This document shows positions 50,626-64,000 of a stretch of 64,000 bases of DNA, piece after piece. Source of the DNA: Microbacterium sp. zg-B185 (GTDB taxonomy: Bacteria; Actinomycetota; Actinomycetes; Actinomycetales; Microbacteriaceae). The notes under the pieces are model-generated. The model did not search any database. It saw only the letters and a program-made list of their open reading frames with translations, and was not told the DNA's origin. The translations under genes were made by a program, and so were the position numbers. Numbering within the stretch: position 1 is the first letter of the stretch; each line of letters begins with the position of its first letter. The stretch is from assembly GCF_030246885.1 (NCBI RefSeq), contig NZ_CP126739.1:2356001-2420000 (forward strand), written 5' to 3'.

Positions 50626-50871
50626 GGGACCTCTCGGAGCGAACATACGGCCGGTCGGCGTCGCTTTCGCGGCGGAGTTGCGGCGCGGCCGCACGGGTAG
50701 GGCGGCCGATGACGATGCTAGCCAGACAGGCTGTGAAATACCCAGACGGAGTCTGCGTGAGAGCCCGTGGCATACTAATGGAGCGCCCGATGAGGGGCGT
50801 GCGGTTCGCCCCGCAAATTCCATCACTACGGATCGTCCGGCACGTACCTGCCGGTGAAGGAGAAGAAAACA

Positions 50872-51978
50872 ATGGCGTCAGTCACGTTCGACAACGCAAC
50901 CCGCTTGTACCCCGGAGGCACCCGCCCGGCGGTCGACAAGCTCAACCTCGAAGTCGGCGACGGCGAGTTCCTCGTCCTGGTCGGACCCTCCGGTTGCGGC
51001 AAGTCCACCTCGCTGCGGATGCTGGCCGGCCTCGAAGAGGTCAACTCGGGTCGGATCCTCATCGGCGACCGCGATGTCACCGACGTCCCGCCCAAGGACC
51101 GCGACATCGCGATGGTGTTCCAGAACTACGCGCTCTACCCGCACATGACCGTCGCCGAGAACATGGGCTTCGCCCTGAAGATCGCCGGCGTCGGCAAGGA
51201 GGAGCGCGCGGCGCGCGTCCTGGAGGCGGCCAAACTCCTTGACCTCGAGGACTACCTGACGCGCAAGCCGAAGGCGCTCTCCGGCGGCCAGCGTCAGCGC
51301 GTCGCGATGGGTCGCGCGATCGTGCGCCAGCCGCAGGTCTTCCTGATGGACGAGCCGCTGTCCAACCTGGACGCGAAGCTGCGCGTACAGACGCGCACCC
51401 AGATCGCGTCGCTGCAGCGCCGCCTGGGCGTCACCACGGTCTACGTCACGCACGACCAGACCGAGGCCCTCACCATGGGTGACCGCATCGCGGTGCTCAA
51501 GGACGGCCTCCTGCAGCAGGTCGGCACGCCGCGCGAACTGTATGAGCGCCCCAACAACGTGTTCGTCGCCGGATTCATCGGCTCGCCCGCGATGAACCTC
51601 TTCCAGTCCGACCTCGCCGAGGGCGGCGTCAGGTTCGGCTCCGAGGTTGTCCCGCTGGATCGTGACACGGTCGGCCGCGCGAACGGCAGCCAGGTCACCA
51701 TCGGCGTGCGCCCGGAGGACATCGTGGTCGGCCCCGCCGACGGCCGTGGTCTGTCGGTCGTGGTGGATCTCGTTGAGGAGCTCGGCGCAGACGGATACCT
51801 CTACGGGCACACCGACATCAGCGGCGAGCGCACCGACATCGTCGCGCGCGTCGACGGCCGCAACCACCCGAACGCGGGTGAGACGGTCACGCTGGCCGCC
51901 ACCGCCGGACACGTCCACGCCTTCGATGTGGAAACCGGCGAGCGCCTCAACGACGCTCCGGTCATCTCGGGCACGTAG
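50872..51978 (+). CDS. Sugar ABC transporter ATPase (UgpC/MsiK type)
   Basis: A 368-residue ATPase with Walker A GPSGCGKST, Q-loop FQNYALYPHMT, signature LSGGQRQRVAMGRA, Walker B VFLMDEPLSNLDA and a C-terminal TOBE domain (VTIGVRPEDIVVGP). No permeases or binding protein are adjacent; in actinobacteria such an orphan ATPase (MsiK) energises several carbohydrate importers. I chose MASVTFDN with GGAGAAG upstream over an ATG six codons earlier. A CATACT -10-like hexamer lies about 100 bases upstream. A strong terminator follows. Confidence 0.92.
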   Translation: MASVTFDNATRLYPGGTRPAVDKLNLEVGDGEFLVLVGPSGCGKSTSLRMLAGLEEVNSGRILIGDRDVTDVPPKDRDIAMVFQNYALYPHMTVAENMGFALKIAGVGKEERAARVLEAAKLLDLEDYLTRKPKALSGGQRQRVAMGRAIVRQPQVFLMDEPLSNLDAKLRVQTRTQIASLQRRLGVTTVYVTHDQTEALTMGDRIAVLKDGLLQQVGTPRELYERPNNVFVAGFIGSPAMNLFQSDLAEGGVRFGSEVVPLDRDTVGRANGSQVTIGVRPEDIVVGPADGRGLSVVVDLVEELGADGYLYGHTDISGERTDIVARVDGRNHPNAGETVTLAATAGHVHAFDVETGERLNDAPVISGT

Positions 51979-51986
51979 CGAACAGC

Positions 51987-52035
51987 AACCGCGGCGCGGA
52001 GGGTCATCGACCCCCGCGCCGCGGTTTCATTTTCC
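51987..52035 (+). terminator. Rho-independent terminator after the UgpC/MsiK gene
   Basis: A 13-base stem AACCGCGGCGCGG with its complement encloses a second stem GGGTC-ATC-GACCC, and TTTCATTTT follows. It ends the ATPase transcript 17 bases before the DUF4032 ATG. Confidence 0.9.
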
Positions 52036-52052
52036 AGAGACCCTGGAGGGAT

Positions 52053-53390
52053 ATGTCAGACGCGCTCAGCATCACCGCGAGCTCGGTGGACCCCGCCCTG
52101 CTGGCACTGCCCTGGTCGACTCCGCTGGCCGAGTGGCCGAGCAGCACGATCGTGTTCCTGCCCAAGGGACTCTCCCGTCACCTCGTCCGCTTCGCCAACC
52201 TCTCCGGCCGCGTGGTGGCGATCAAGGAGACGACCGAGCAGATGGCGCGTCGCGAGTACGACATGCTCGGGAACCTGGATCGCCTCGATGCGCCCTGCGT
52301 CCAGCGCGTCGCGGTGATCGCCGGAAGGATGGATGCCGCGGGCAGAGCCCTGCCGGCAGCGCTGGTCACCGCGCATCTGAAATTCTCCCTGCCGTACCGT
52401 GCACTGTTCACGCAGGTGCTTCGCCCGGACACCGCGAACCGCCTGGTGGATGCGCTTGCGGTCCTGCTGGTGCGTCTGCACAACGTGGGATTCTTCTGGG
52501 GCGATGTCTCACTGTCGAACACCCTCTTCCGCCGTGACGCCGGCGCCTTCGCGGCCTACCTCGTGGACGCCGAGACCGGCGAGCTGCACGAATCCGGTCT
52601 GACACCGGGCCAGCGCGCCCACGACCTGGATGTCGCCCGCACCAACATCGCGGGCGAGATCATGGACCTGGAAGCGGGCGGCCGCCTCGAAGGCGGCGTG
52701 GATGCGGTGGCCATCGCCGACGGCATCCTCTCGTCGTACCGGCTGCTGTGGGCGGCCCTGACCGATCAGGAGACCTTCGCCGCGAACGAGTCGTGGCGCA
52801 TCACCGAGCGGGTGCAGCGATTGAACGATCTCGGGTTCGACATCGGGGAGATGTCCATCCAGGCCAGGACCGACGGAACGCGTGTCTCGATCCAGCCGAA
52901 GGTCGTCGACGCCGGGCACCATCAGCGCCGACTGCTGCGCCTGACCGGCCTGGACGTCGAAGAGAACCAGGCACGGCGACTGCTGAACGATCTGGACGAG
53001 TTCCGGGCGAGGATCTCGCGCACGGGCGATGACGAGGACATGGTGGCGCACGAGTGGCTCACGCGCGTCTTCGAGCCGGTGATCAAGGCCATCCCGTTCG
53101 ACCTCCGCGCCAAGCTCGAACCGGCCGAGGTGTTCCACCAGGTGCTCGAGCATCGCTGGTACATGTCTCAGCGTCGCGGGCGTTCGGTGCCGCTGGCCGA
53201 GGTGCTCACCAGCTACATCGACGACGTCCTGCGCCACCGGCGCGACGAGGCGACCCTGATGGGGCCGGTCACCGAGACGATGTCGCTGCCGGTGGTCACC
53301 TCCAGTGGCCGGCCGCTCGGGCCGGACGAGAACGCCCCTCTGGAGGCGGACGAGGAAGCGGACAGCCTGGACTGGCGCGACCTGGTCTGA
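52053..53390 (+). CDS. DUF4032 protein with kinase-like N-terminal region
   Basis: A 445-residue protein: the N-terminal part has a kinase-like pattern (RVVAIKETTEQMARREYDMLGNL resembles the Lys-containing strand; NVGFFWGDVSLSNTLFRRDAGAFAAYLVDAETGEL the catalytic and DxD-like loop). The C-terminal part is DUF4032 (VSIQPKVVDAGHHQRRLLRLTGLDVEENQARRLLNDL). It resembles lipopolysaccharide-kinase-like proteins, yet no substrate is known. It is convergent with the E2 gene and both stop codons lie in one palindrome. Confidence 0.85.
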   Translation: MSDALSITASSVDPALLALPWSTPLAEWPSSTIVFLPKGLSRHLVRFANLSGRVVAIKETTEQMARREYDMLGNLDRLDAPCVQRVAVIAGRMDAAGRALPAALVTAHLKFSLPYRALFTQVLRPDTANRLVDALAVLLVRLHNVGFFWGDVSLSNTLFRRDAGAFAAYLVDAETGELHESGLTPGQRAHDLDVARTNIAGEIMDLEAGGRLEGGVDAVAIADGILSSYRLLWAALTDQETFAANESWRITERVQRLNDLGFDIGEMSIQARTDGTRVSIQPKVVDAGHHQRRLLRLTGLDVEENQARRLLNDLDEFRARISRTGDDEDMVAHEWLTRVFEPVIKAIPFDLRAKLEPAEVFHQVLEHRWYMSQRRGRSVPLAEVLTSYIDDVLRHRRDEATLMGPVTETMSLPVVTSSGRPLGPDENAPLEADEEADSLDWRDLV

Positions 53391-53401
53391 GTTCAGACCA
53401 G
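53382..53401. repeat. Palindrome holding both stop codons of convergent genes
   Basis: CTGGTCTGAGTTCAGACCAG has nine-base arms around GT. Each arm encodes Leu-Val-stop for one gene, DUF4032 on the plus strand and E2 on the minus strand. It may work as a bidirectional terminator. Confidence 0.85.
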
Positions 53402-54682
53402 CACGCTCACCGGGTTCTCGATGCGGCGGACGAAAGCCGCCAGCAGCTGCGCCGCCAGCGCACCGTCCAGCACCCGGTGATCCGCCGAGAGCGTCACCGT
53501 CATCACCGTCGCGACCGCCAGCTCGCCGTCGGCATCGACCACGGGGCGCCGGGTCGCGGCGCCCACCGCGAAGATCCCCGCCTGCGGCGGGTTGATGATC
53601 GCCGAGAACTCCCGGGTTCCGTACATGCCCAGGTTGGAGACCGAGAACGAACCGCCTTCCAGCTCGTGCTGCCTGAGACGACCTGCCCGCGCACGTTCCG
53701 CGAGATCCCGTATGGCGCGGCTGAGCTCGCCGAGCGGCATCCGTTCTACTCCCTGCACGACCGGTGTCAGCAGACCGCCGGGCACCGCGACCGCGATCGC
53801 AAGGTCGACGCCGGTGAACCGGCGGATGGCGTCGTCGGTCCAGATGGCGTTCGCCTCGGGCACGTCCTGCAGCGCTGCGGCGACCGCCTTGACCACGAGA
53901 TCGTTCACCGACACGCTGACATCCGCCGCGTCGTTGATGCGTGCGCGCACGGCGAGCAGCTCGTCGACCCGGCAGTGCGCGACTAGATAGAAGTGCGGCA
54001 CAGTGGCCGTGCTCTCACCCAGCCGCCGGGCGATCGCACGGCGCATGCCGGTGTGCGGGATGTCGGTGTACTGGGCCGGCACGGCGTCGACGTGAGCGGA
54101 TGCCGAGGCCGGCGCCGGCGGCACGGCAGCGCGCGCCGAACCGCCCAGAGCGGCCGTCAGAACGGCATCCAGGTCTCGTCGCACGACCCGTCCGTTCGGC
54201 CCCGACCCGACCACCGCGGAAAGGTCGATGCCGCGTTCGCGAGCGAGCCTGCGCACCAGCGGGCTGGCGAAGAGTCGGCTGCCGGCTCCACCCGGCGCGG
54301 CGGCCGGAGTGGACGCGGCGGCCGCGGTGGCCGTCGTGACCTCGGCGGTCGGTGCGGGCGCGGCATCCTGCGCGACCGCCGCCGCCGCCGCCGTCGCCGT
54401 CGCCGTCGCCTCGACGCTCCGCAACGCCTCTTCGGCGCTCTCGCCCGGCGCAGCCAGAACGGCGATCGGGCTTCCCACCGTGGCCGTCTCGCCGGCAGCC
54501 ACGAGCACACCGGCGATCGTTCCGTCCGCTTCGGCCTCGTACTCGACAACGGCCTTCTCGGTCTCTATCTCGACGATCGCCTGACCGACGGTGACCTGGT
54601 CGCCGACGTCGATCAGCCAGGTCTGAATGGCGGCCTCGTTCCCGCCTGCTGCCAGCTGCGGCATCCTGACCACCACGCCCAT
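53393..54682 (-). CDS. 2-oxo acid dehydrogenase E2 (dihydrolipoyl acyltransferase)
   Basis: A 429-residue E2 with an N-terminal lipoyl domain (EIETEKAVVEYEAEADG, lipoylated Lys), an Ala/Thr/Pro-rich hinge, a peripheral-subunit-binding domain (ASPLVRRLARERGIDLSAVVGSGPNGRVVRRD) and a catalytic domain ending with SADHRVLDGALAAQLL, where His and Asp catalyse acyl transfer. It would pass acyl groups from the E1 encoded just upstream to CoA. E1 and E2 overlap by one base. No lipoamide dehydrogenase (E3) is here. The substrate is an oxo acid or acetoin; cannot be fixed from sequence. Confidence 0.93.
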   Translation of the reverse strand: MGVVVRMPQLAAGGNEAAIQTWLIDVGDQVTVGQAIVEIETEKAVVEYEAEADGTIAGVLVAAGETATVGSPIAVLAAPGESAEEALRSVEATATATAAAAAVAQDAAPAPTAEVTTATAAAASTPAAAPGGAGSRLFASPLVRRLARERGIDLSAVVGSGPNGRVVRRDLDAVLTAALGGSARAAVPPAPASASAHVDAVPAQYTDIPHTGMRRAIARRLGESTATVPHFYLVAHCRVDELLAVRARINDAADVSVSVNDLVVKAVAAALQDVPEANAIWTDDAIRRFTGVDLAIAVAVPGGLLTPVVQGVERMPLGELSRAIRDLAERARAGRLRQHELEGGSFSVSNLGMYGTREFSAIINPPQAGIFAVGAATRRPVVDADGELAVATVMTVTLSADHRVLDGALAAQLLAAFVRRIENPVSVLV

Positions 54683-56871
54683 CAGCGGCCTCCCCATGCG
54701 GCGCGCATCCGTTGCAGGCCGGCGACCACGTCGTCGGTACCGGCGATCGCGGCGCGCTCCAGCACCTTCGAGATGCTGGGGCTGGCCTCACCCCCGGTCA
54801 CCCGCTCGATGGGCTGATCCAGCCAGTCGAAGAACCGGCGCTGCAGCTCGTCGGCCAGCCAGCCGCCGTAGGACGGACCGCGCGCACCCTGCTCGACGAT
54901 CAGCACGTTGTTCGTCTTGCGGATGCTGTCGCCGATCGTGTCCCAGTCCAGCGACGCCCGGTCGAGCCAACGCAGATCGATCACCTCGGCGTCGATGCCG
55001 GTCTGCTCCACAGCCTCCAGGGCGTGCCCGACCATGGACAGATAGGTCAGCACGGTGACCTCCGATCCGCTCCGACGCACGGCGGCGTGGCCAGGCGGGA
55101 TGACGTAGTCGAGATCCCCGTCCGGGATCCGGTCGGCCTGTCCGTACAGGTCCACGTGCTCGATCACCAGCACCGGGTCCTCCAGCGCGAGCGCGGCGTT
55201 CATCAGCCCCACGTAGTCCGCCGCGGTGGAGGCCGCGGCGATCCGCCACCCTGGCTGCGTCGCGAAGATCCCGGCCGGATCCATCAGGTGCTGCGAGCCG
55301 TAGCCGGACCCCATCGCGACTTTGGTGCGCAGCACCAGCGGGACGGTGTTGTTGCCGCCGAACATGTGCCGGGCCTTGCCGACCTGGTTGAAGACCTGGT
55401 CGGCGGCGACCCACATGAAGTCGGGGTACATGAACTCCACCACGGGCCGGAAGCGCCCATCCAGCGCCACCCCGCCGGCCAGTCCGAAGAAGCCGTTCTC
55501 GCTGATCGGCGTGCCGATCACGCGGTCCGGGCCGTACTTCTGCGCCAGGCCCTTGGTCGCGCCGTTGGTGCCCCCGTTGAGGCGGTGCACATCTTCTCCG
55601 AGCACGATGATGCGCTGGTCGGTCTCCATGCGCCGATCCATCGTGGCCGCGACCGCATCGACGAACTTCATCTCGCGCCAGGCGCCGGCGTGCTCCTCCG
55701 GCTCGCGGGCGTCCAGACCCTCCAATTCGCTCGCGTCCCCGCGGATCCCGGTGTCCACGACGGCCGGGTCCGGCCACAGCTCGGGCCGGATACGGCGGCG
55801 GCCGTCGTCGTCGCGGTCGTCCTCGGTGAGATTCGCGACGGCTGCGGCCATCGCGGCCTGAGCCTGCTCGCGCATCGAGACGATCGTGCCGTCCTCGATC
55901 AGGGACAGCTCCCGCATCCGGGTCGCCACCAGCTCAAGCGGGTCACGTGCACGCCACCCGGTCTCTTCGTCCTTGGTGCGGTAGCCGAACGCGCTCCCGG
56001 GGTACGGGCCGTTCTGGTGGAAGAAGCGGTAGACCTCGGCCTCCACGATGGCCGGCCCCTCCCCCGCGCGCATGCGGGCGAGCGCCTCGTCCGTGGCGAG
56101 GTGGACCGCGAGCGGGTCCATGCCGTCCACACGCCAGCTGGGGATGCCGAATCCCTGTCCGCGCACCGAGAACCGGGGGTCCGCGGTCACCTCGTCGGCG
56201 TGCGTCGATACGGCGTAGAGGTTGTTCTCGATGAAGTACATGACCGGCGCCTTCCACGCCGCGGCGAGGTTCATCGATTCCAGAACGGACCCGATCTGGC
56301 TGGCGCCGTCGCCGAAGTAGTTGATCGACACATCGGTGGTCGCGGCGTGTTTCTGCGCCCACGCGTGTCCGGTCGCGATGGGGGCCCCGCCGCCGACGAT
56401 GGCGTTCGTGCCGAGGGCACCCGCCTCCAGCCACTGCAGGTGCATGGATCCGCCTCTCCCGCCGGAGAATCCCTGCGCCAGGCCCAGGATCTCGGCCAGC
56501 GTCCGCTGGAGCAGGTCTTGCAGCGGCGGCGTCACCAGTGCGGCCGGGTCGAGCGGACCGGTCGCGACGTGATGAATGGCCTTCGCCAGGAACTGGTGGT
56601 GACCGCGGTGCGAGCCGTTCACGGCATCCGTGGAGCGCAGTCCGACGATGGAACCGACCGCTCCGCCCTCCTGGCCGATGCTGGAGTGCGCGGGGCCGTG
56701 CACGAGACCGTCCGCAGCAAGATCGAGGACGGACTCCTCGAATGCCCGGATCAGGTGCAGCTGTCCCAGCATGGTGCTCAGCAGTGCGGGATCCGCCGCC
56801 TGCCAGTCCGCGGGGGTGGTCTGGAGCTGTACCCATTCCACCCCGGTCTGCAAGCGTCGTCGCTTCGGCAT
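54682..56871 (-). CDS. Fused E1 alpha-beta of a 2-oxo acid/acetoin dehydrogenase
   Basis: The 729-residue protein joins both thiamine-diphosphate-dependent subunits. The alpha half (1-380) has HSSIGQEGGAVG, GRGGSMHL and the ThDP motif GDGASQIGSVLESMNLAAAW followed by ENN. The beta half (from about 400) begins MKFVDAVAATMDRRMETDQRIIVLGEDVH and has GTPISENGFFGLAGGVAL and the C-terminal transketolase-like fold (VIDLRWLDRASLDWDTI). Usually the two are separate genes; fusion is known in acetoin and related dehydrogenase clusters. It leads an operon with E2, behind a promoter with a GntR-type operator and tandem repeats in its leader. Confidence 0.93.
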   Translation of the reverse strand: MPKRRRLQTGVEWVQLQTTPADWQAADPALLSTMLGQLHLIRAFEESVLDLAADGLVHGPAHSSIGQEGGAVGSIVGLRSTDAVNGSHRGHHQFLAKAIHHVATGPLDPAALVTPPLQDLLQRTLAEILGLAQGFSGGRGGSMHLQWLEAGALGTNAIVGGGAPIATGHAWAQKHAATTDVSINYFGDGASQIGSVLESMNLAAAWKAPVMYFIENNLYAVSTHADEVTADPRFSVRGQGFGIPSWRVDGMDPLAVHLATDEALARMRAGEGPAIVEAEVYRFFHQNGPYPGSAFGYRTKDEETGWRARDPLELVATRMRELSLIEDGTIVSMREQAQAAMAAAVANLTEDDRDDDGRRRIRPELWPDPAVVDTGIRGDASELEGLDAREPEEHAGAWREMKFVDAVAATMDRRMETDQRIIVLGEDVHRLNGGTNGATKGLAQKYGPDRVIGTPISENGFFGLAGGVALDGRFRPVVEFMYPDFMWVAADQVFNQVGKARHMFGGNNTVPLVLRTKVAMGSGYGSQHLMDPAGIFATQPGWRIAAASTAADYVGLMNAALALEDPVLVIEHVDLYGQADRIPDGDLDYVIPPGHAAVRRSGSEVTVLTYLSMVGHALEAVEQTGIDAEVIDLRWLDRASLDWDTIGDSIRKTNNVLIVEQGARGPSYGGWLADELQRRFFDWLDQPIERVTGGEASPSISKVLERAAIAGTDDVVAGLQRMRAAWGGR

Positions 56872-56893
56872 CCGGCCATCTCCCTCGACAGTG

Positions 56894-56958
56894 CCTGATC
56901 ATGCATGCCTGATCATGCATGCCCGATCACGGTTGCCCGATCACGGTTGCCCGATCCC
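56894..56958. repeat. Tandem 14-base repeats in the leader of the E1-E2 operon
   Basis: Two copies of CCTGATCATGCATG are followed by two copies of CCCGATCACGGTTG and a partial fifth unit beginning CCCGATC. All share the CCYGATC core at exact 14-base spacing. They lie between the likely promoter and the E1 ATG. Confidence 0.9.
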
Positions 56959-56995
56959 GCGCCGCAACCGAGCGTGGCTGTCAAACTAACCCTCA

Positions 56996-57007
56996 ATTGG
57001 ATCCAAT
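56996..57007. promoter_or_regulatory. GntR/FCD-type operator 1 (E1 side)
   Basis: ATTGGATCCAAT is a perfect palindrome. On the E1 strand it falls between a TTGTAT -35-like and a TAGTTT -10-like hexamer 17 bases apart, the ideal place for repression. It is the same site as operator 2 with one change. Confidence 0.75.
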
Positions 57008-57057
57008 ACAAGCCTTTGTGCGGGATATGCCTGCGCCGCTGCGTCGTTGCTTGCCAT

Positions 57058-57069
57058 ACTGGATCCAAT
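57058..57069. promoter_or_regulatory. GntR/FCD-type operator 2 (VOC-GntR side)
   Basis: ACTGGATCCAAT matches operator 1 at 11 of 12 positions and overlaps a CATACT -10-like hexamer of the VOC-GntR promoter. Two sites on a divergent promoter suggest joint control of both operons. Confidence 0.72.
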
Positions 57070-57088
57070 CAGGACGAGGAGGTCAGGC

Positions 57089-57619
57089 ATGAGTGCAGCG
57101 CTGCCCGGCATGCGAGGCGTGGATCACGTCGGTTTCACGGTGCCCGATCTGGATGAGGCGGAGCGCTTCCTGGTCGACGTGCTCGGTGCCATCCCGATCT
57201 ACACGCTGGGTGAAAAGCGGGCCGACGACGAGTGGATGGCCACCCAGCTCGGCGTGCATCCGCGAACGGTGATCCGCGAGATCCGGTTCTATCGGCTCGG
57301 TTCGGGCACCAATCTCGAAGTGTTCGCCTATGACGCAGCCGATGGGCAGCGTCCACAGCCGCGCAACAGCGACATCGGCGGTCATCATCTCGCTCTGTAC
57401 GTCGACGACATGGACGCGGCGGAGGCGTTCCTGCGCGAGAAGGGCGTGGAGGTCATGGGTGCACCGGTCCGCAGCGCCGGCGCGTCCGCGGGTCAGCGCT
57501 GGCTGTATTTCCGCTCGCCCTGGGGCATGCAGTTCGAGCTGGTCAGCTTCCCGGACGGCAAGGCATACGAAGCGGAGGCTCCGGTCACACTGTGGCATCC
57601 GGCGAGGCCGGCCGAATGA
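57089..57619 (+). CDS. VOC-family (glyoxalase/dioxygenase-like) protein
   Basis: The 176-residue protein has two beta-alpha-beta-beta-beta modules: GVDHVGFTVPDLDEAERFLVDVLGA in the first and HHLALYVDDMDAAEAFLREKGVEVMG in the second, with metal-ligand candidates His and Glu (DHVGF, FELVSF). Members are glyoxalases, epimerases or dioxygenases. AGGAGG lies just before the ATG. Its stop overlaps the GntR start (ATGA), so enzyme and regulator are co-translated. It is divergent from the fused E1 gene, likely in the same pathway. Confidence 0.9.
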   Translation: MSAALPGMRGVDHVGFTVPDLDEAERFLVDVLGAIPIYTLGEKRADDEWMATQLGVHPRTVIREIRFYRLGSGTNLEVFAYDAADGQRPQPRNSDIGGHHLALYVDDMDAAEAFLREKGVEVMGAPVRSAGASAGQRWLYFRSPWGMQFELVSFPDGKAYEAEAPVTLWHPARPAE

Positions 57620-58311
57620 GCGACGACGACGGCGCCGGCGGCACGCTCGAGCCCGGTCGCGGCCGGGACGGCGACGCCGGCGCGCGCATCGCGCACAGCA
57701 TCCGCGAGGGGATCATCCGCGGCGACTACCCGCCGGGGACGCGCATCCGCCAAGAGGACCTCGCCTCGAGATTCGGCGCGAGCCGAGTCCCGGTGCGCCA
57801 GGCGCTGCAGCAGCTGGAGTACGAAGGTCTCGTGACTGTCGTGGCGAACGCGGGCGCCTGGGTGGCGAGCCTGACGCTGGCCGAGTGCGAGGAGGTGTAT
57901 CAGATGCGCGAACGGCTCGAGCCTCTTCTGCTGCGCTACAGCGCGCCGCATCTGAGCCCGTCCGAGATCCAGAGCCTCGCCGACCTTGCCCAGCGCATCA
58001 CCGTCGAGGGAGCCGACACCGACACCTTCCTCGCGCTGGACAGGCGGTTCCATCTCGCCAGTTACGCCGGTGCACACACCTCGGTGCTGGGCGATCTCAT
58101 CCAGAAGCTCTGGAACACCACCGCCCCGTATCGGCGTGCGTACGTCGCCTCGTGGGAGGCGGATTCCAGACGCATCGCCCACGAGGAGCACCACCTGATC
58201 GTCGCCGCTCTGCGCGACGGCGATATCGAAGAGGCCGAGCGCGTGCTGGCCGGGCACATCCGCCGCACCCGGCGCCAGCTGGTGAAGAGTCCGCAGATCT
58301 TCGCGAGCTGA
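57616..58311 (+). CDS. GntR-family regulator (FCD subfamily)
   Basis: A 231-residue regulator with an N-terminal winged helix (RIAHSIREGIIRGDYPPGTRIRQEDLASRFGASRVPVRQALQQLEYEGL) and a helical FCD effector domain with the expected Asp/His residues (FLALDRRFHLAS, then HEEHHLIVAALRDGD), which bind a metal and an organic acid in relatives. It probably binds the two TTGGATCCAA-type palindromes upstream and controls the E1-E2 and VOC operons. The start overlaps the VOC stop. Confidence 0.93.
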   Translation: MSDDDGAGGTLEPGRGRDGDAGARIAHSIREGIIRGDYPPGTRIRQEDLASRFGASRVPVRQALQQLEYEGLVTVVANAGAWVASLTLAECEEVYQMRERLEPLLLRYSAPHLSPSEIQSLADLAQRITVEGADTDTFLALDRRFHLASYAGAHTSVLGDLIQKLWNTTAPYRRAYVASWEADSRRIAHEEHHLIVAALRDGDIEEAERVLAGHIRRTRRQLVKSPQIFAS

Positions 58312-58357
58312 GCGTCATCCGCTCGGCAGCGACCGATGCCCGGGCGTGCGCTGCGAC

Positions 58358-59389
58358 TCAGCGCGCCGCGGCCAGCATGCGCGCGAGGAGCACCGGGTCG
58401 GGCTGGAGCCGGCCACGCTCGATGCGGTGCGCCAATTCGAGGACGACGGCGTTGACGGGGGTGGGGATGCCGAGGCGGGCGCCCTCGCCGACGACGTGGC
58501 CGTTGATGTCGTCGACTTCGCTGTGGCGTCCCTTGCGCCAGTCCTGCAGGACGGTCGTCGTGGCGCCGGGCACCACGAACGCCGCGAAGAGTTTGTCGGT
58601 CATGATCTGAACGACCCTCGAGCTGTCGGCGATCTCCTCCGCCGTGAGCCCGAAGATCGGCAGCACCGGGTGGCCCAGCGCCGCCCCGACCGCGAGCGCC
58701 TCGTCACCGGCTGCGACCATGACGTCCCGATAGCCGGGCAGGTGCAGGGCGTCCAGCATCGGCAGGCCCAGGACCGCCGACGTGACCAGGAGCGTCGCGT
58801 TGCTGACCAGCTTCATCCACTTCGCGGCCTGGATGTCATCCGAGACGGCGACTGTTCCGGAGTGTCGGAGCAGACTCGCAACCTCCTCGATGCGGTCGGA
58901 CGGTCCGCCGGGGAGAGCTCCGACGGCGAACCACGACCGCGCCACGCCCGTGTGCCGGTGCACCAGACCGGGTTCGTTCATCGTGGCCGAGCATTCGATG
59001 ACCACCCCCAGGGTGCGCTCTGCCCCGACGACGTCCTCCACGACACGAGCGGTCATCCCGTTCTGCACGCCCGCCATCAGACCGTCCGCGACGAGGTGAG
59101 GCTCCAACAGCTGCGCCGCCCAGCGGGAGTCGTACGCCTTCATCACCATGAGCACCACGTCGAACTGCGTCTTCACCTCGGCGACCTCGCACAGGTTGAT
59201 CACGCGTGGCCGCACGTGCAGTTCACCTTCGGGCGTCCGTACGCGCAATCCGTCCGTCCGCATCCGTTCCACGTGCGCGGGCCACTGCTCCACGAGCATC
59301 ACGTCGTGACCGGCGGCGGTGAGATCCGCGCCGATCGATGCTCCGTTGGCGCCGGCGCCGAGCACGGCGATCCGCGGGTCGCTCATCAT
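58358..59389 (-). CDS. Ketopantoate-reductase (PanE/ApbA)-like dehydrogenase
   Basis: A 343-residue enzyme with an N-terminal Rossmann motif IAVLGAGANGASIGADLTAAGHDV and a helical C-terminal domain with KWMKLVSNATLL, where PanE has its catalytic Lys. The family reduces ketopantoate, but members in catabolic clusters act on other 2-oxo or hydroxy acids. The neighbours do not include pantothenate genes, so a catabolic role is more likely. GGAGAGG precedes adjacent ATG codons at 59389/59386. Divergent from the Dabb gene across 173 bases. Confidence 0.88.
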   Translation of the reverse strand: MMSDPRIAVLGAGANGASIGADLTAAGHDVMLVEQWPAHVERMRTDGLRVRTPEGELHVRPRVINLCEVAEVKTQFDVVLMVMKAYDSRWAAQLLEPHLVADGLMAGVQNGMTARVVEDVVGAERTLGVVIECSATMNEPGLVHRHTGVARSWFAVGALPGGPSDRIEEVASLLRHSGTVAVSDDIQAAKWMKLVSNATLLVTSAVLGLPMLDALHLPGYRDVMVAAGDEALAVGAALGHPVLPIFGLTAEEIADSSRVVQIMTDKLFAAFVVPGATTTVLQDWRKGRHSEVDDINGHVVGEGARLGIPTPVNAVVLELAHRIERGRLQPDPVLLARMLAAAR

Positions 59390-59562
59390 GGGTCCTCTCC
59401 TTCGCGGGCGAATCGAGAATACAGCGCAGATGTACACCGGGCCCGCGATAGTCTGAGAAACACCCGCCGGTTGGTCCCGTTGTACACCTTCACTTGACAC
59501 GACACGAGAATCGCTCGACAGTATCTTCAGGTCAGGTCACCAGTCAGCGAGGAGAACAGGAC
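59390..59562. promoter_or_regulatory. Divergent promoter region with repeated TGTACACC
   Basis: Two direct copies of TGTACACC lie at 59431 and 59481. A TTGACA -35-like hexamer with CAGTAT downstream points toward the Dabb gene; TGTATTCT on the other strand points toward the dehydrogenase gene. The repeats might bind the cluster's XRE-cupin regulator; this is a guess from position. Confidence 0.4.
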
Positions 59563-59874
59563 ATGATCCTCCACATCGCAGCTTTCCGCTGGAAGCCAGA
59601 GGTCGCCGAGGCGGATGTCGCGGCACTGACGGCGGCGCTTCGGGAGATGGCCTCCGGGATCCCCCAGATCCGGTCCTATGTCGCCGGCGCCAACCTCCGC
59701 CTGCGCCCCGCCGGCGCCGACTACGGGATCGCCGCGATCCTCGACGATGCGGCGGCGCTGAACACCTACCTGGATCACCCGGAGCACATGGCGGTCTACG
59801 AGAAGTACCTGGGCTGGATGATCGCGGAGCGTTCTGCTGTGCAGCTGCCCATCTCCGATGGCGCGTTCGCATGA
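59563..59874 (+). CDS. Dabb-family (dimeric alpha-beta barrel) protein
   Basis: A 103-residue protein: MILHIAAFRWKPEVAEADVAALTAALREMASGIPQIRSYVAG is the Dabb (stress-responsive A/B barrel) fold, followed by DHPEHMAVYEKYLGWM with the conserved His. Relatives include small cyclases, monooxygenase-like proteins and catabolic auxiliaries. GAGGAGAA lies ahead. Its stop overlaps the start of the alcohol dehydrogenase (ATGA). Confidence 0.9.
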   Translation: MILHIAAFRWKPEVAEADVAALTAALREMASGIPQIRSYVAGANLRLRPAGADYGIAAILDDAAALNTYLDHPEHMAVYEKYLGWMIAERSAVQLPISDGAFA

Positions 59875-60932
59875 CGTCGATGCGCGCGGCCGTGCTGCAC
59901 GATGTGGGCGATCTCCGCATCGAGGAGGTCGAGGTGCCCGCTCCCGCCGAGGGCGAGGTCCTGATCCGCGTGGCCGTCTGCGGCGTCTGCGGCAGCGATG
60001 CGACGGAGTTCGGCCGCGGGCTGGTGCTCGCGGTGCCGCCGGTGACGCTGGGCCACGAGTTCGTCGGCGTCGTGGCGGCCGTCGGACGAGGCGTGGACGG
60101 GCTCGCGGTCGGCGCCACGGTCGTCAGCGGCGCCGGCGTCTCGTGTGGAGAGTGCAAGCCCTGCCGCAACGGCCGCACGAACCTGTGCCGTTCCTACACG
60201 ACGGTGGGTTTCCACCACGATGGCGGTCTCGCCGGCTACGTCCTCGTGCCGGCCGGGATCGTGCTGGACGTGTCGGCTTCGGGCCTTGCTCTCGACACTC
60301 TCGGGCTCACCCAGCCGATGGCCATCGCCGTGCACGCCGTCCGCCGCAGTGGGCTGCGCGCCGGCCAGGATGCCGTCATCGTCGGCGTCGGCGGCATCGG
60401 AGCGTTCATTGCGGTCGCCGCAGCCGCCACCGGCGCCAGGCTGCTGGTCGTCGACCTCAATCAGGACCGGATCGAGCTCGCGCTCCGCCTCGGGGCAGCC
60501 TCGGGCCTCATCTCCGGGTCGATGCCGATGGCTGCCCGGCTGGATGAGCTCGGGATGGACGTGGACGTCTTCTTCGAGGTCAGCGGGTCCGCCGCCGGCC
60601 TGGCCGCAGTGCTCGATGCAGCCAAGCCCGGCGCGACCATCGTGCCGGTCGGCATCCAGCGCGGCGAACCCGCGTTACCTCTGGGCCGGTGGACGCTGAA
60701 GGAATTCACGATCGTAGGGACGGTCGCCCACGTGTACCAGGACGACTTCCCTGAGGCGGTGCGCCTCCTCGGCACACGAGAGGACTGGTCCGACATCGCC
60801 GGTGAGGTGATCCCGATCGACGAGGTCGTGGAGGCCGGGCTTCAGCCGCTGCTGGAAGGTCGCTCGCGTCAGATCAAGACACTCGTCGATCCGTGGGCGA
60901 GCACGCCCCGGGCCGCGCAGCACTCCCGCTGA
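59871..60932 (+). CDS. Zinc-dependent alcohol/polyol dehydrogenase (MDR family)
   Basis: A 353-residue zinc enzyme: catalytic zinc ligands in CGVCGSD and GHEFVGVVAAVGRGV, structural zinc in VSCGECKPCRNGRTNLC (four Cys), and the NAD motif VIVGVGGIGAFIAVAAAATGA. Members oxidise secondary alcohols such as 2,3-butanediol, sorbitol or threonine. The overlap with the Dabb gene suggests a shared pathway. With the E1-E2 pair nearby, a diol-to-acetoin step is one option, unproven. Confidence 0.92.
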   Translation: MTSMRAAVLHDVGDLRIEEVEVPAPAEGEVLIRVAVCGVCGSDATEFGRGLVLAVPPVTLGHEFVGVVAAVGRGVDGLAVGATVVSGAGVSCGECKPCRNGRTNLCRSYTTVGFHHDGGLAGYVLVPAGIVLDVSASGLALDTLGLTQPMAIAVHAVRRSGLRAGQDAVIVGVGGIGAFIAVAAAATGARLLVVDLNQDRIELALRLGAASGLISGSMPMAARLDELGMDVDVFFEVSGSAAGLAAVLDAAKPGATIVPVGIQRGEPALPLGRWTLKEFTIVGTVAHVYQDDFPEAVRLLGTREDWSDIAGEVIPIDEVVEAGLQPLLEGRSRQIKTLVDPWASTPRAAQHSR

Positions 60933-60947
60933 CGCCGGCGGACCGTC

Positions 60948-61643
60948 TCAGGAGTCCAGATCGTCCATCGCCCGGAGGACGTCCACGGCCGAGGACGGAG
61001 CCCGCCCGGCGGCCGCCTCCGCGCCGGGTGCGTCCCGGAGCGACTCATTCTGCTGTCGCCGCCCCACGACGAACCACACGCCTTTCGCGACAGACCCCGT
61101 GCGGTTCGAGTACAGATGCGGCCTCACCGAGTCGAACTGGAGCGAGTCGCCGGGACCGAGGACGAAGGTCTCGAAATCCAGATGCAGGGTCAGCTCCCCC
61201 TCGAGCAGATAGGCGTACTCCACGCCGGAGTGCCGCATCAGCTTCCCCTCGATGGAACTGCTCGCACCGGGCGCGTAGGTGACCAGAAGCGCATCGGCCG
61301 GCCCGCCGGCGCCCACCGCGAGCCGTTCCCAGACCACGCCGTTCTCCATCTCGATGCGCGGGTTCTCCGCCCCGCGCTGCACGTCCGGCAAGGCCGGTCC
61401 GGAGTGACCGAACAGCGACGCGGCCGGCTTCGCCCCGGACTGCGGAATGCCCATCAACTCATCGAGCGAGACGCCCAAGTGGCTGGCCAGCGCGTACAAC
61501 GTGGCCACCGAAGGCTGCGTCTTGCCGATCTCGACCTGGGAGATCAAGGACGCCGAGACGCCGAGCGACTGCGCAACGCTGCGCAGGCTGAGCCCACGCT
61601 GCGTTCGCACTTCGCGGAGCCGTGCACCGAGGCTGTCCGGCAT
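60948..61643 (-). CDS. XRE-family regulator with C-terminal cupin domain
   Basis: A 231-residue regulator with an N-terminal helix-turn-helix (ARLREVRTQRGLSLRSVAQSLGVSASLISQVEIGKTQPSVATLYALASHLGVSLDEL) and a cupin domain (HSGVEYAYLLEGELTLHLDFETFVLGPGDSLQFDSVRPHLYSN). The PuuR/SutR-like layout senses a small metabolite in the cupin pocket. It faces the alcohol dehydrogenase gene and is divergent from the M24 gene, so it probably controls that operon. A TACTGT/ACAGT inverted repeat lies in the divergent gap. Confidence 0.93.
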   Translation of the reverse strand: MPDSLGARLREVRTQRGLSLRSVAQSLGVSASLISQVEIGKTQPSVATLYALASHLGVSLDELMGIPQSGAKPAASLFGHSGPALPDVQRGAENPRIEMENGVVWERLAVGAGGPADALLVTYAPGASSSIEGKLMRHSGVEYAYLLEGELTLHLDFETFVLGPGDSLQFDSVRPHLYSNRTGSVAKGVWFVVGRRQQNESLRDAPGAEAAAGRAPSSAVDVLRAMDDLDS

Positions 61644-61716
61644 GCTTTCCCACTCACCTTCGTCGTGAACCGGTCCTGCAATGGCACGGTCGCTGCTGTC
61701 ATTCTACGGGCGACAG

Positions 61717-61730
61717 ACAGTCGCTACTGT
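61717..61730. promoter_or_regulatory. Possible operator near the M24 promoter
   Basis: ACAGT-CGCT-ACTGT is a perfect inverted repeat in the gap between the XRE-cupin and M24 genes, about 50 bases before the M24 ATG. Pairing with the XRE protein is inferred from place only. Confidence 0.4.
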
Positions 61731-61779
61731 TAAGCTGTACTGCACGCGCAGATCGTGGAGCGACGCTCAGGAGGACTCG

Positions 61780-63162
61780 ATGAAGAGCACTGGCACGACC
61801 GGCACCAACGCCGTCGACTGGGAGGAGCGGGTCGATTTCGAGCGCCTCCGAGATGCCCGGCTCGCGCGGCTGAAGGCGGAACTCGATGTGACCGAGCTCG
61901 GCGCGGTGCTGGCGTTCGACTTCTCGAACATCCGGTACATGAGCGCGACGCATATCGGCACGTGGGCGATGGACAAGCTGATCCGCTTCGCCCTCCTCAC
62001 CCGCAACACCGACCCCATCGTGTGGGACTTCGGATCGGCAGCCAAGCACCACGCGCTCTACAACCCGTGGCTGGACACCACCACGGCAGAGATGGATGCC
62101 GACCCCAACGCCGCGCATGAGGGTGCCAAGCGGCCTCGCCTGGAATCCGGCGCGCGCGCGGGCATCTCGACCCTCCGAGGGGCATTCCCGCCCAACGCGG
62201 AGATCGCCGAGGGCGTCGCGCGCAAGATCAAGCGTGAACTGGAGAAGTTCGGGGTCGCCGACCAGCCCCTCGGCGTGGACGTGATCGAACTGCCGATCCT
62301 GTTCGCGCTCCAGAGAGAGGGCATCACGGTCGTCGACGGTCAGCAGGTCTTCATGGAGGCGCGACGCGTCAAGACACCCGACGAGATCCGCCTGCTGACC
62401 CAGGCGGCGTCGATGGTCGATGCCGCCTACGAGGAGCTGTACCGGTTTCTCCGGCCCGGCGTGCGCGAGAACGAGGCTGTGGGCCTGGTCGCCAAGACGC
62501 TCTACGACCTCGGATCGGAGTACGTCGAGGGCGTGAACGCGATCTCCGGCGAACGCTGCTCACCGCACCCACACGTCTTCTCGGACCGGCTGATCCGGCC
62601 GGGCGACCCGGCCTTCTTCGACATCCTGCACAGCTGGAACGGTTACCGCACCTGCTATTACCGCACGTTCGCGGTTGGCTCGGCCAGCTCCGCACAGCGG
62701 GACGCCTACACGCGATCGCGGGAGTACATGGACCGCGCGATCGCCCTCGTCAAGCCCGGAGCGACCACCGCCGACATCGTGGCAGTGTGGCCGACCGCGC
62801 AGGAGTTCGGCTTCGCGGACGAGGAGGCTGCGTTCGCCCTGCAGTACGGACACGGGGTCGGACTGTCCATCTGGGAGAAGCCGATCTTCTCGCGTCTGAC
62901 CTCGCTGGATCACCCCGAAGTGCTGCAGGAAGGCAACGTGTTCGCCCTCGAGACTTACTGGCCATCCGCGGACGGGTGGGGGGCGGCGCGCATCGAGGAG
63001 GAGCTCGTCGTCACCGCCGACGGCTGCGAGGTGATCACCAAGTTCCCCGCTGAGGAGCTGCTGGTGGCCGGGCGCCGCTATTACACGGTCGACGGTCCGC
63101 TGAACCTCCAGCGGGACGCTCAGTCGCATCTGAACACGACCTGGGGGCGCGGAGAGGCGTGA
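61780..63162 (+). CDS. M24-family (aminopeptidase P/creatinase/DddP-fold) protein
   Basis: A 460-residue protein with an N-terminal creatinase-like domain (LKAELDVTELGAVLAFDFSNIRYMSAT) and a C-terminal pita-bread fold. Three metal-ligand regions are kept: YGHGVGLSIW (His), VFALETYWPS (Glu) and ARIEEELVV (Glu). The Asp-Asp region reads FFDILHSWNGYRTCYYRTF, with the second Asp missing, so the metal site is altered. Length and N-terminal layout recall DMSP lyase DddP and creatinase more than peptidases. AGGAGG precedes the ATG. Its stop overlaps the next start (GTGA). Confidence 0.85.
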   Translation: MKSTGTTGTNAVDWEERVDFERLRDARLARLKAELDVTELGAVLAFDFSNIRYMSATHIGTWAMDKLIRFALLTRNTDPIVWDFGSAAKHHALYNPWLDTTTAEMDADPNAAHEGAKRPRLESGARAGISTLRGAFPPNAEIAEGVARKIKRELEKFGVADQPLGVDVIELPILFALQREGITVVDGQQVFMEARRVKTPDEIRLLTQAASMVDAAYEELYRFLRPGVRENEAVGLVAKTLYDLGSEYVEGVNAISGERCSPHPHVFSDRLIRPGDPAFFDILHSWNGYRTCYYRTFAVGSASSAQRDAYTRSREYMDRAIALVKPGATTADIVAVWPTAQEFGFADEEAAFALQYGHGVGLSIWEKPIFSRLTSLDHPEVLQEGNVFALETYWPSADGWGAARIEEELVVTADGCEVITKFPAEELLVAGRRYYTVDGPLNLQRDAQSHLNTTWGRGEA

Positions 63163-64000
63163 CCACACTCGGCTTCCTCGGGCTGGGCTCGATGGGCGGC
63201 GGGATGGCCCGCCGCCTGATCGATGCCGGCCACGACGTCACCGTCTGGAACCGCTCGCCCGGTCCCGCCCGCGAGCTGGTCGCCCTCGGCGCCCGCGCTG
63301 CGGCCACCCCGGGGGAAGCACTCGCCGCCGACGTGTCGTTCTCGATGCTGGCCAACGACGACGCCACCGATGCCGTCCTCGACTCCGAGTCCGTCAGATC
63401 CGCGGCCGGCCGCCGCCACGTGGTCATGGCCTCGGTCAGCCCGTCGTTGACCGAGGCTCTGCAAGTGCGATTCCAGGATGCCGGTGCCCGCTTCGTCAGC
63501 GCGCCGGTCCTCGGCCGCCCTGCCGTGGCGGCCGCCGGCGACCTGAACATCCTGGCCGCCGGAGATCCGGCCGACATCGATGCGGTCGAGCCCTACCTGG
63601 CCCTGCTCGGCAGGCGCGTGTGGCGCATCAGCGATCGACCGTCGGTGGCGACAGCCGTGAAGGCAGCAGTCAACTACAACATCATCCACGCGCTGCAGGC
63701 CATCGGCGAGACGGTCGCAATGACCGAACGCCAGGGCGTCGATCCGGCACTGTTCACCGAACTGCTCTCCAGCACGCTCTTCGGCGGCGTCGTGTACACG
63801 GGGTACGGCGACATCATCGCCCGCGGCGCGTACGCCCCGCCGGGGTTTCACATCGCCCTCGGCCGGAAGGACCTCGCGCTCGCGGAGGAGGTGGCCGTCG
63901 CGGGCGGCGTGCACCCCGCGACGATGCCGGCGCTGATCGCGGTCTTCGATCGCGCGCTGGCCGATCCCGAACTCCGGGACCTGGACTGGGCGGCGATCGC
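63159..64000 (+). CDS. Beta-hydroxyacid dehydrogenase (HIBADH family), runs off right edge
   Basis: About 280 codons are visible, starting at a GTG that overlaps the M24 stop. The Rossmann motif LGFLGLGSMGGGMARRLIDAG, the VWNRSP loop and the substrate segment SAPVLGRPAVAAAGDLNILAAG are those of 3-hydroxyisobutyrate/tartronate-semialdehyde reductases, and VKAAVNYNIIHALQAIGE holds the catalytic Lys. The protein would be about 290 residues, so nearly all of it is here. Coupled to the M24 gene, probably one pathway. Substrate unknown. Confidence 0.9.
   Translation, partial: MTTLGFLGLGSMGGGMARRLIDAGHDVTVWNRSPGPARELVALGARAAATPGEALAADVSFSMLANDDATDAVLDSESVRSAAGRRHVVMASVSPSLTEALQVRFQDAGARFVSAPVLGRPAVAAAGDLNILAAGDPADIDAVEPYLALLGRRVWRISDRPSVATAVKAAVNYNIIHALQAIGETVAMTERQGVDPALFTELLSSTLFGGVVYTGYGDIIARGAYAPPGFHIALGRKDLALAEEVAVAGGVHPATMPALIAVFDRALADPELRDLDWAAI

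Follow-up and report, generated by a model that had tools for sequence, protein, structure and literature searches.

What does the gene block at the right-hand end of this stretch of Microbacterium DNA do, and is it as novel as its gene content first suggested? The stretch, here called the window, comprises the 64,000 nucleotides C1:2356001-2420000 of the 3.57-Mb single-contig genome of Microbacterium sp. zg-B185. A preliminary description of its end saw ten adjacent genes, an undescribed catabolic island with three regulatory layers matching no named pathway. All ten open reading frames (ORFs) were found again, and the island is real, conserved, and not unknown in kind. With two genes beyond the window edge, it forms a 12-gene block that is probably a route for opening and burning small ring-shaped molecules. 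The reading favored here, with moderate confidence, is that the block, inserted at a chromosomal site, is a variant form of the bxd-type module for ring catabolism, in which the E1 and E2 components of a 2-oxo acid dehydrogenase deliver acyl-CoA.

Six island genes make up a conserved module common to the bxd-type cluster, each assigned by Pfam or, for the first, by Pfam/NCBIfam-type searches: a HIBADH-like beta-hydroxyacid dehydrogenase (63159..64028, plus strand, running past the window edge at 64000), an M24-fold protein (61780..63162, plus), a VOC protein (57089..57619, plus; a TTG start would give 57047), a GntR/FCD regulator (57592..58311, plus), a fused alpha/beta E1, a thiamine-diphosphate dehydrogenase (54682..56871, minus), and an E2 acyltransferase with lipoyl, E3-binding, and catalytic domains (53393..54697, minus). 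The M24 ORF spans 61681-63162; the start was set at 61780 because nearly all listed relatives have 460 amino acids (aa). The four pairwise overlaps seen earlier, 4-28 bp long, are all present: E1/E2 by 16 bp, VOC/GntR by 28 bp (with the longest GntR ORF), and Dabb/alcohol dehydrogenase (ADH) and M24/HIBADH by 4 bp each.

The bxdA-O cluster of Microbacterium LMB2 serves the growth of root bacteria on the maize benzoxazinoid MBOA; in the available passages of PMC11297187, it has 15 genes for 13 enzymes and two regulators. These passages name BxdA, a lactonase of about 34 kDa that starts MBOA breakdown, together with the aldehyde dehydrogenase (ALDH) BxdD, the VOC protein BxdG, and the NAD(P)-dependent oxidoreductase BxdN, and leave the roles of the other bxd genes still to be uncovered. 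Past the ALDH gene, the M24-E1 locus of genome G528 goes on with genes for a flavin monooxygenase, RidA, and a metallo-beta-lactamase-fold protein of 299 aa. Lettered from this end, the 15 genes of the locus encode (A-H) a lactonase-like protein, RidA, a monooxygenase, an SSADH-like ALDH, E2, E1, VOC, and GntR, then (I-O) a monooxygenase, a flavin reductase, RidA, M24, a LacI regulator, a HIBADH-like protein, and an F420/NADP-oxidoreductase-like protein. The locus agrees with the published passages in how many genes and regulators it has and at each of the four positions they name (A, D, G, and N). Genome G578 has the same order, with RidA K at the border of two fetched pieces and not called; the two genomes are close kin, since their lactonases are identical. 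Loci of this type are taken here to be putative bxd clusters. The window island contains their E2-E1-VOC-GntR block and their M24 and HIBADH-like genes, so the claim that no named pathway holds this set is not supported, though the passages assign these genes no role.

The module is also conserved well outside these loci. Among 198 Microbacterium genomes, an E1 orthologue occurs in 35, M24 in 33, and both in 32; no pair is split between contigs, and the two genes are within 20 kb of each other in 31 of the 32 and 158 kb apart in the remaining one. Among 394 genomes of the class, E1 occurs in 27, M24 in 48, and both in 23, of which 18 pairs share a contig, all within 13 kb by an eye count, and five lie on separate contigs of drafts. 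The formal probabilities of 2.5e-32 and 4e-20 are inflated because these tallies count related species separately. Gene neighborhoods were read at the best 80 of 558 named M24 loci, a sample therefore biased to close relatives, with flanks of up to 10 kb (some shorter) and hand-assigned genus labels; gene order at several relatives' loci comes from a simple ORF picker with unrefined start sites. Beside M24 in these best 80 of 558 are XRE-cupin (56 loci), HIBADH (53), ADH (44, including 30-40% paralogues), GntR (42), VOC (41), window-type E1 (36), PanE (33), E2 (30), the amidohydrolase (28), SDR (22), and Dabb (11), as well as the chromosomal flank genes rlmB (13), DUF4032 (11), and cysS (7). 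Loci with module partners span many orders in the same sample, and gene order and strand differ greatly among them, as would fit selection acting on the set and not the inheritance of a single order. A small-genome actinobacterium of 48% GC (L144) carries HIBADH-like, M24, VOC, E1, and E2 genes in one run after branched-chain-type ABC genes. The earlier suspicion of a conserved catabolic unit is thus borne out by the neighborhoods in other genomes, where the core recurs widely, and the possibility that it is conserved nowhere falls away.

The lactonase distribution ties the module to bxd in part. Six of the 198 genus genomes have a BxdA-like lactonase; all belong to the 32 that carry both E1 and M24, and in five of the six it lies within 45 kb of both. 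Among 131 loci searched it was found in five, including that of a named Arthrobacter (L070), about 2.8 kb from M24. Several observations weigh against the favored reading. The bxd identity itself was judged by gene order and family names and not by the sequences of the paper; in one carrier (G486), the lactonase is 2.8 Mb from the module; and no BxdA-like lactonase matches in the window genome at E<=1e-90. No bxdI-like or HsaA-like flavin monooxygenase is present in the island, the best match in the genome reaching 27% across half the protein. M24 is missing from 3 of the 35 genus genomes and 4 of the 27 class genomes that have E1; the fused E1 is missing from 25 of the 48 class genomes that have M24; and one actinobacterial run (L145: HIBADH-like, M24, VOC, E1, then a MurT-like gene) has no E2 after E1. 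In both M24 loci without fused E1 that were read (L150, L153), a split E1-like gene lies at most a few kb from M24. RidA, flavin reductase, SSADH-like ALDH, and LacI genes are absent from the 12 island genes, to which that search was confined. MBOA degradation of the bxd type was rejected for the window strain, which has no lactonase and no close monooxygenase; for the same reason, its island is regarded as a variant with another upstream part.

The M24 protein is an unusual enzyme at the heart of the module. It belongs to the M24 or pita-bread fold (131.9 bits in Pfam, plus fold matches); a relative in Microbacterium terregens is 98% identical. The full set of five metallopeptidase ligands (D, D, H, E, E) is lacking: the site reads D281/C292/H358/E391/E406 in the alignment, with cysteine in place of the second metal-binding aspartate, which bears out the altered site of the preliminary description, and Cys292 is found in 67 of 67 sequences of the clade. 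Two or three M24 copies lie near each other in L081, L115, G507, and G455, with both the Trp type and the His type of the HE motif represented. A RidA gene abuts the M24 start or lies less than 10 bp away in L076, L078, L134, and L073 (9 bp in L073), which suggests coupled imine handling. A passage of PMC4617892 lists a Mycobacterium smegmatis Xaa-Pro aminopeptidase, possibly of this family, under nitrogen limitation. Among the passages obtained from the open-licence literature, the scope of the search, no paper tied M24 to the module.

The preliminary description proposed that M24 could open C-N or C-S bonds; such cleavage, or the elimination of a leaving group, in the manner of DoeA, creatinase, or DddP is rather unlikely. 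DddP (the nearest structural relative) and DoeA belong to the group of equal best matches in the fold comparison, and RidA, of an imine-handling family, abuts or nearly abuts M24 in L076, L134, and L073, as this alternative would have it; against it, the Cys site occurs in neither DddP nor the aligned prolidases, and the DddP model gives 103 bits against a cut-off of 600. The specific candidate, DddP as a dimethylsulfoniopropionate (DMSP) lyase, was rejected on this score (NF043017, 103.3 bits) and on the Asp-to-Cys change.

Under the favored reading, the E1-E2 pair is the exit of the route. Both E1 and the lipoyl-bearing E2 of a 2-oxo acid/acetoin dehydrogenase complex are in the island by Pfam, and their description as an acyl-CoA-forming pair is supported; the nearest solved relatives of E1 are pyruvate dehydrogenase (PDH) E1 proteins. 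E2 scores 443.8 bits against TIGR01349 (cut-off 445), its nearest model being PDH-type, and a score so near the cut-off is no proof of substrate. The linked E3 that the preliminary description advised looking for is not in the island; E3-sized Pyr_redox_2 proteins are encoded elsewhere on the chromosome, one adjoining another E2 gene, and lpdA adjoins M24 or E1 in several relatives. A Phaeobacter plasmid carries M24, a split E1, a lipoyl protein, SSADH, E2, and E3 genes. BqdLMS, a hydroxybenzoquinone dehydrogenase, performs quinone-type ring cleavage in anaerobic hydroxyhydroquinone degraders, and it is conceivable, if doubtful, that E1-E2 itself likewise cleaves an acyloin, a 1,2-diketone, or a quinone-type ring, as acetoin dehydrogenase does, leaving M24 as a dehydratase or deaminating hydrolase. 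Several relatives group the genes for E1, E2, E3, and an SSADH-like ALDH, and four proteobacterial fused-E1 loci in plasmid clusters (L133, L135, L136, and L137), with E2, SDRs, a shikimate-dehydrogenase-like gene, and E3 and/or SSADH, have no M24 in the stretch read, all of which would suit cleavage by the complex; however, E2 is nearest the PDH type, and the presence of M24 beside E1 in 32 of 35 genus genomes would go unexplained.

The VOC protein and its promoter give the module a second signature. Its H, E, H, and E residues are kept in at least 95% of 66 matches, a four-ligand pattern known from glyoxalase and methylmalonyl-CoA epimerase rather than from extradiol dioxygenases. E1 and VOC are divergently transcribed in 62 distinct loci (63 were fetched, G521 twice), and the promoter between them contains a twin palindrome. 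In the window, the first copy, ATTGGATCCAAT, lies at 56996..57007 and the second, ACTGGATCCAAT, 62 bp downstream at 57058..57069; neither is assigned a strand. With at most one mismatch, ATTGGATCCAAT occurs in this promoter in 41 of the 62 distinct loci, and twin copies with up to three mismatches stand 61-64 bp apart in 51 of 62. Counted over fetched loci, 42 of 63 have a site with at most one mismatch, against a shuffle mean of 0.05 from a control that ignores common descent. The window copies at 56996 and 57058 are the only ATTGGATCCAAT sites with up to two mismatches in the 64 kb, and they account for two of three places genome-wide with at most one. The GntR/FCD protein, we infer, binds the twin palindrome and would thereby control the E1/VOC promoter. 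The XRE-cupin regulator (60948..61643, minus, Pfam) probably controls M24-HIBADH. No operator stands out between XRE-cupin and M24 in 24 loci, only a ribosome-binding-like string, and the twin palindrome has no site upstream of M24; TGATCA, tried blind, gave 18 sites against 11.5 expected and was not used. GntR/FCD and XRE-cupin are the only regulators found, and the three regulatory layers proposed earlier are not supported.

The following sequence of steps would account for the core. A ring-derived, carbonyl-rich intermediate of the cyclic beta-diketone or hydroxyquinone type would enter the module; M24 would open it by C-C hydrolysis; VOC may rearrange the product; the HIBADH-like enzyme would handle either a hydroxy acid or a semialdehyde; and E1-E2, relying on an E3 from outside the island, would convert a 2-oxo acid or acyloin to acyl-CoA. 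In the window strain, the intermediate would be made from an upstream substrate by PanE, ADH, SDR, Dabb, and the amidohydrolase. The first three of these in map order are a PanE/ApbA-like dehydrogenase (58358..59386, longest ORF to 59500, minus; Pfam, and TIGR00745 with 161.6 bits against a cut-off of 141), a Dabb stress-responsive A/B barrel protein (59494..59874, plus, Pfam), and a zinc alcohol/polyol dehydrogenase (59871..60932, plus, Pfam). Pantothenate, mycosporine/gadusol, methylerythritol, acetoin/2,3-butanediol, and phloroglucinol are leads only, none singled out.

Sulfonamide-degradation loci offer a second point of contact, as the module is partly common to clusters beside sulfonamide/4-aminophenol genes. 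Paenarthrobacter R1 carries an acyl-CoA-dehydrogenase-family gene and SulR ahead of enoyl-CoA hydratase-like, helix-turn-helix, RidA, M24 (89%), HIBADH-like, SDR, and lpdA genes; in Microbacterium lacus SDZm4 and strain BR1, an HsaA-like-family gene, RidA, M24, HIBADH, SDR, and lpdA lie within about 10 kb. The sulfonamide pathway leads to 4-aminophenol and 1,2,4-trihydroxybenzene, where the accounts in the available passages end, and parts of the module adjoin the genes of this pathway; the favored reading predicts a ring-opening step. The M24 neighbors are unnamed in the passages of PMC6868719, PMC10873849, PMC12285269, and PMC12589209, in which "peptidase" appears once, for an SOS-response protein. 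From the chemistry, para-to-amino hydroxylation and imine hydrolysis of the MBOA-derived aminophenol would give the same hydroxyquinol/hydroxybenzoquinone level. A plasmid of R. opacus 1CP carries M24, HIBADH-like, E1, E2, SSADH, and lpdA genes scattered across about 55 kb, with a maleylacetate reductase gene nearby; this arrangement is no more than a loose hint.

Transport genes bear on both the substrate and the state of the island. A linked transporter, which the preliminary description had advised looking for, is present in relatives, though the island itself has none. G589, the nearest relative (98% in M24), has a ribose/allose-type (CUT2-type) binding protein, RbsA, and two more genes between XRE-cupin and M24; the window has 136 bp at this place and aligns on both sides of the block (about 5.2 kb, L172:13035-18185), with the junction at 61714..61728. 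Such ABC genes recur beside M24 in the best 80 of 558 loci (29 with a fused RbsA-RbsC and 28 with binding protein F12), EboE-like genes occur in six of the same loci, and IolM is the nearest NCBIfam model of the ADH. These findings would fit an island serving an imported sugar-like ring, a cyclitol or similar polyol that ADH, PanE, and SDR would oxidise ahead of ring opening. This is nevertheless fairly unlikely: such a transporter is absent from the window island, the ADH scores 164.5 bits against the scyllo-inosose 3-dehydrogenase IolM model (NF041097), far below its cut-off of 450, and the transporter type is no proof of sugar because similar ABC genes lie inside the bxd-type locus G517. 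The EboE-like TIM-barrel gene stands near M24 in L101, L109, L112, L118, L123, and L125, far from known ebo settings; the one member scored reached 392 bits (cut-off 250).

The roughly 5.2 kb missing relative to G589, together with the lack of a transporter, ALDH, and E3, could also mean that the window strain holds a decaying or incomplete copy without an uptake system. This is improbable, as the ORFs are intact with coding-type base composition; moreover, G589 may have gained the ABC block, because L066-L068 likewise lack an ABC gene in the interval from XRE-cupin to M24.

The favored variant of a bxd-type module sits at a defined chromosomal site. As foreseen, the cluster runs past the right edge, by an SDR gene (64079-64918, minus) and a PRK08204-like amidohydrolase gene (65057-66496, plus), so that the island extends from 53393 to about 66496 in continued window numbering. 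A DUF4032 gene lies on one side, and on the other the backbone resumes with an NAD_binding_10 gene (66537-67178), followed by rlmB, cysS, and ispDF. In 9 of 14 other Microbacterium genomes read at the DUF4032 locus, ABC, DUF4032, NAD_binding_10, and rlmB genes are contiguous, and none of these nine has an M24 at E<=1e-60; the island is therefore an insertion. E2 is at the same spot in two of the five non-empty relatives (L183, L186). The DUF4032/NAD_binding_10-rlmB junction (53390 to 66537), where other relatives carry differing module parts, is apparently a hot spot for insertion. A UgpC-type ABC ATPase gene (50854-53390 region) adjoins the DUF4032 gene in the window and nearly all relatives read.

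If the G528/G578-type loci are bxd clusters, six bxd genes form a module that extends far past the benzoxazinoid degraders, taking in small-genome actinobacteria at one end and marine alphaproteobacteria at the other, and is marked by the Cys-substituted M24 site, the divergent E1/VOC promoter, and the twin ATTGGATCCAAT operator. The interest lies in this reach and in the unexplained M24 clade. A bolder and quite tentative proposal is that the Cys-site clade is a new type of carbon-carbon hydrolase that, with a dedicated 2-oxo acid dehydrogenase, might give aerobic actinobacteria and marine alphaproteobacteria a widespread route of ring opening without dioxygenases, where diverse upstream pathways (for benzoxazinoids, sulfonamide-derived aminophenols, and imported cyclic polyols) converge.

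Four known systems invite comparison. The phloroglucinol pathway with its dihydrophloroglucinol cyclohydrolase, as given in a passage of PMC10470551 (beyond which no papers on anaerobic hydroxyhydroquinone genes were found in the open-licence literature), resembles the module only in the proposed hydrolytic (retro-Claisen) ring opening; it is anaerobic, has another gene set, and is compared by reaction alone. The M24-fold non-peptidases DddP, DoeA, and creatinase are about 22% identical to the window M24, which differs in having cysteine as the second ligand. Acetoin and pyruvate dehydrogenases match the island pair in the domain architecture of E1 and E2, the nearest models being PDH E1 and PDH-type E2, whereas the island E1 is an alpha/beta fusion, without a local E3, and linked to M24 and VOC. 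For the bxd-matching loci, identities with the window are 52% for E2, 77% for E1, 67% for VOC, 50% for GntR, and 52% for the HIBADH-like protein, and their M24 belongs to the same Cys-site superfamily. In contrast to bxd, the window island contains PanE, Dabb, ADH, XRE-cupin, SDR, and amidohydrolase genes, while the bxd-type variant G517 has a window-type M24 (88%), a monooxygenase, XRE-cupin, and ABC genes inside one cluster.

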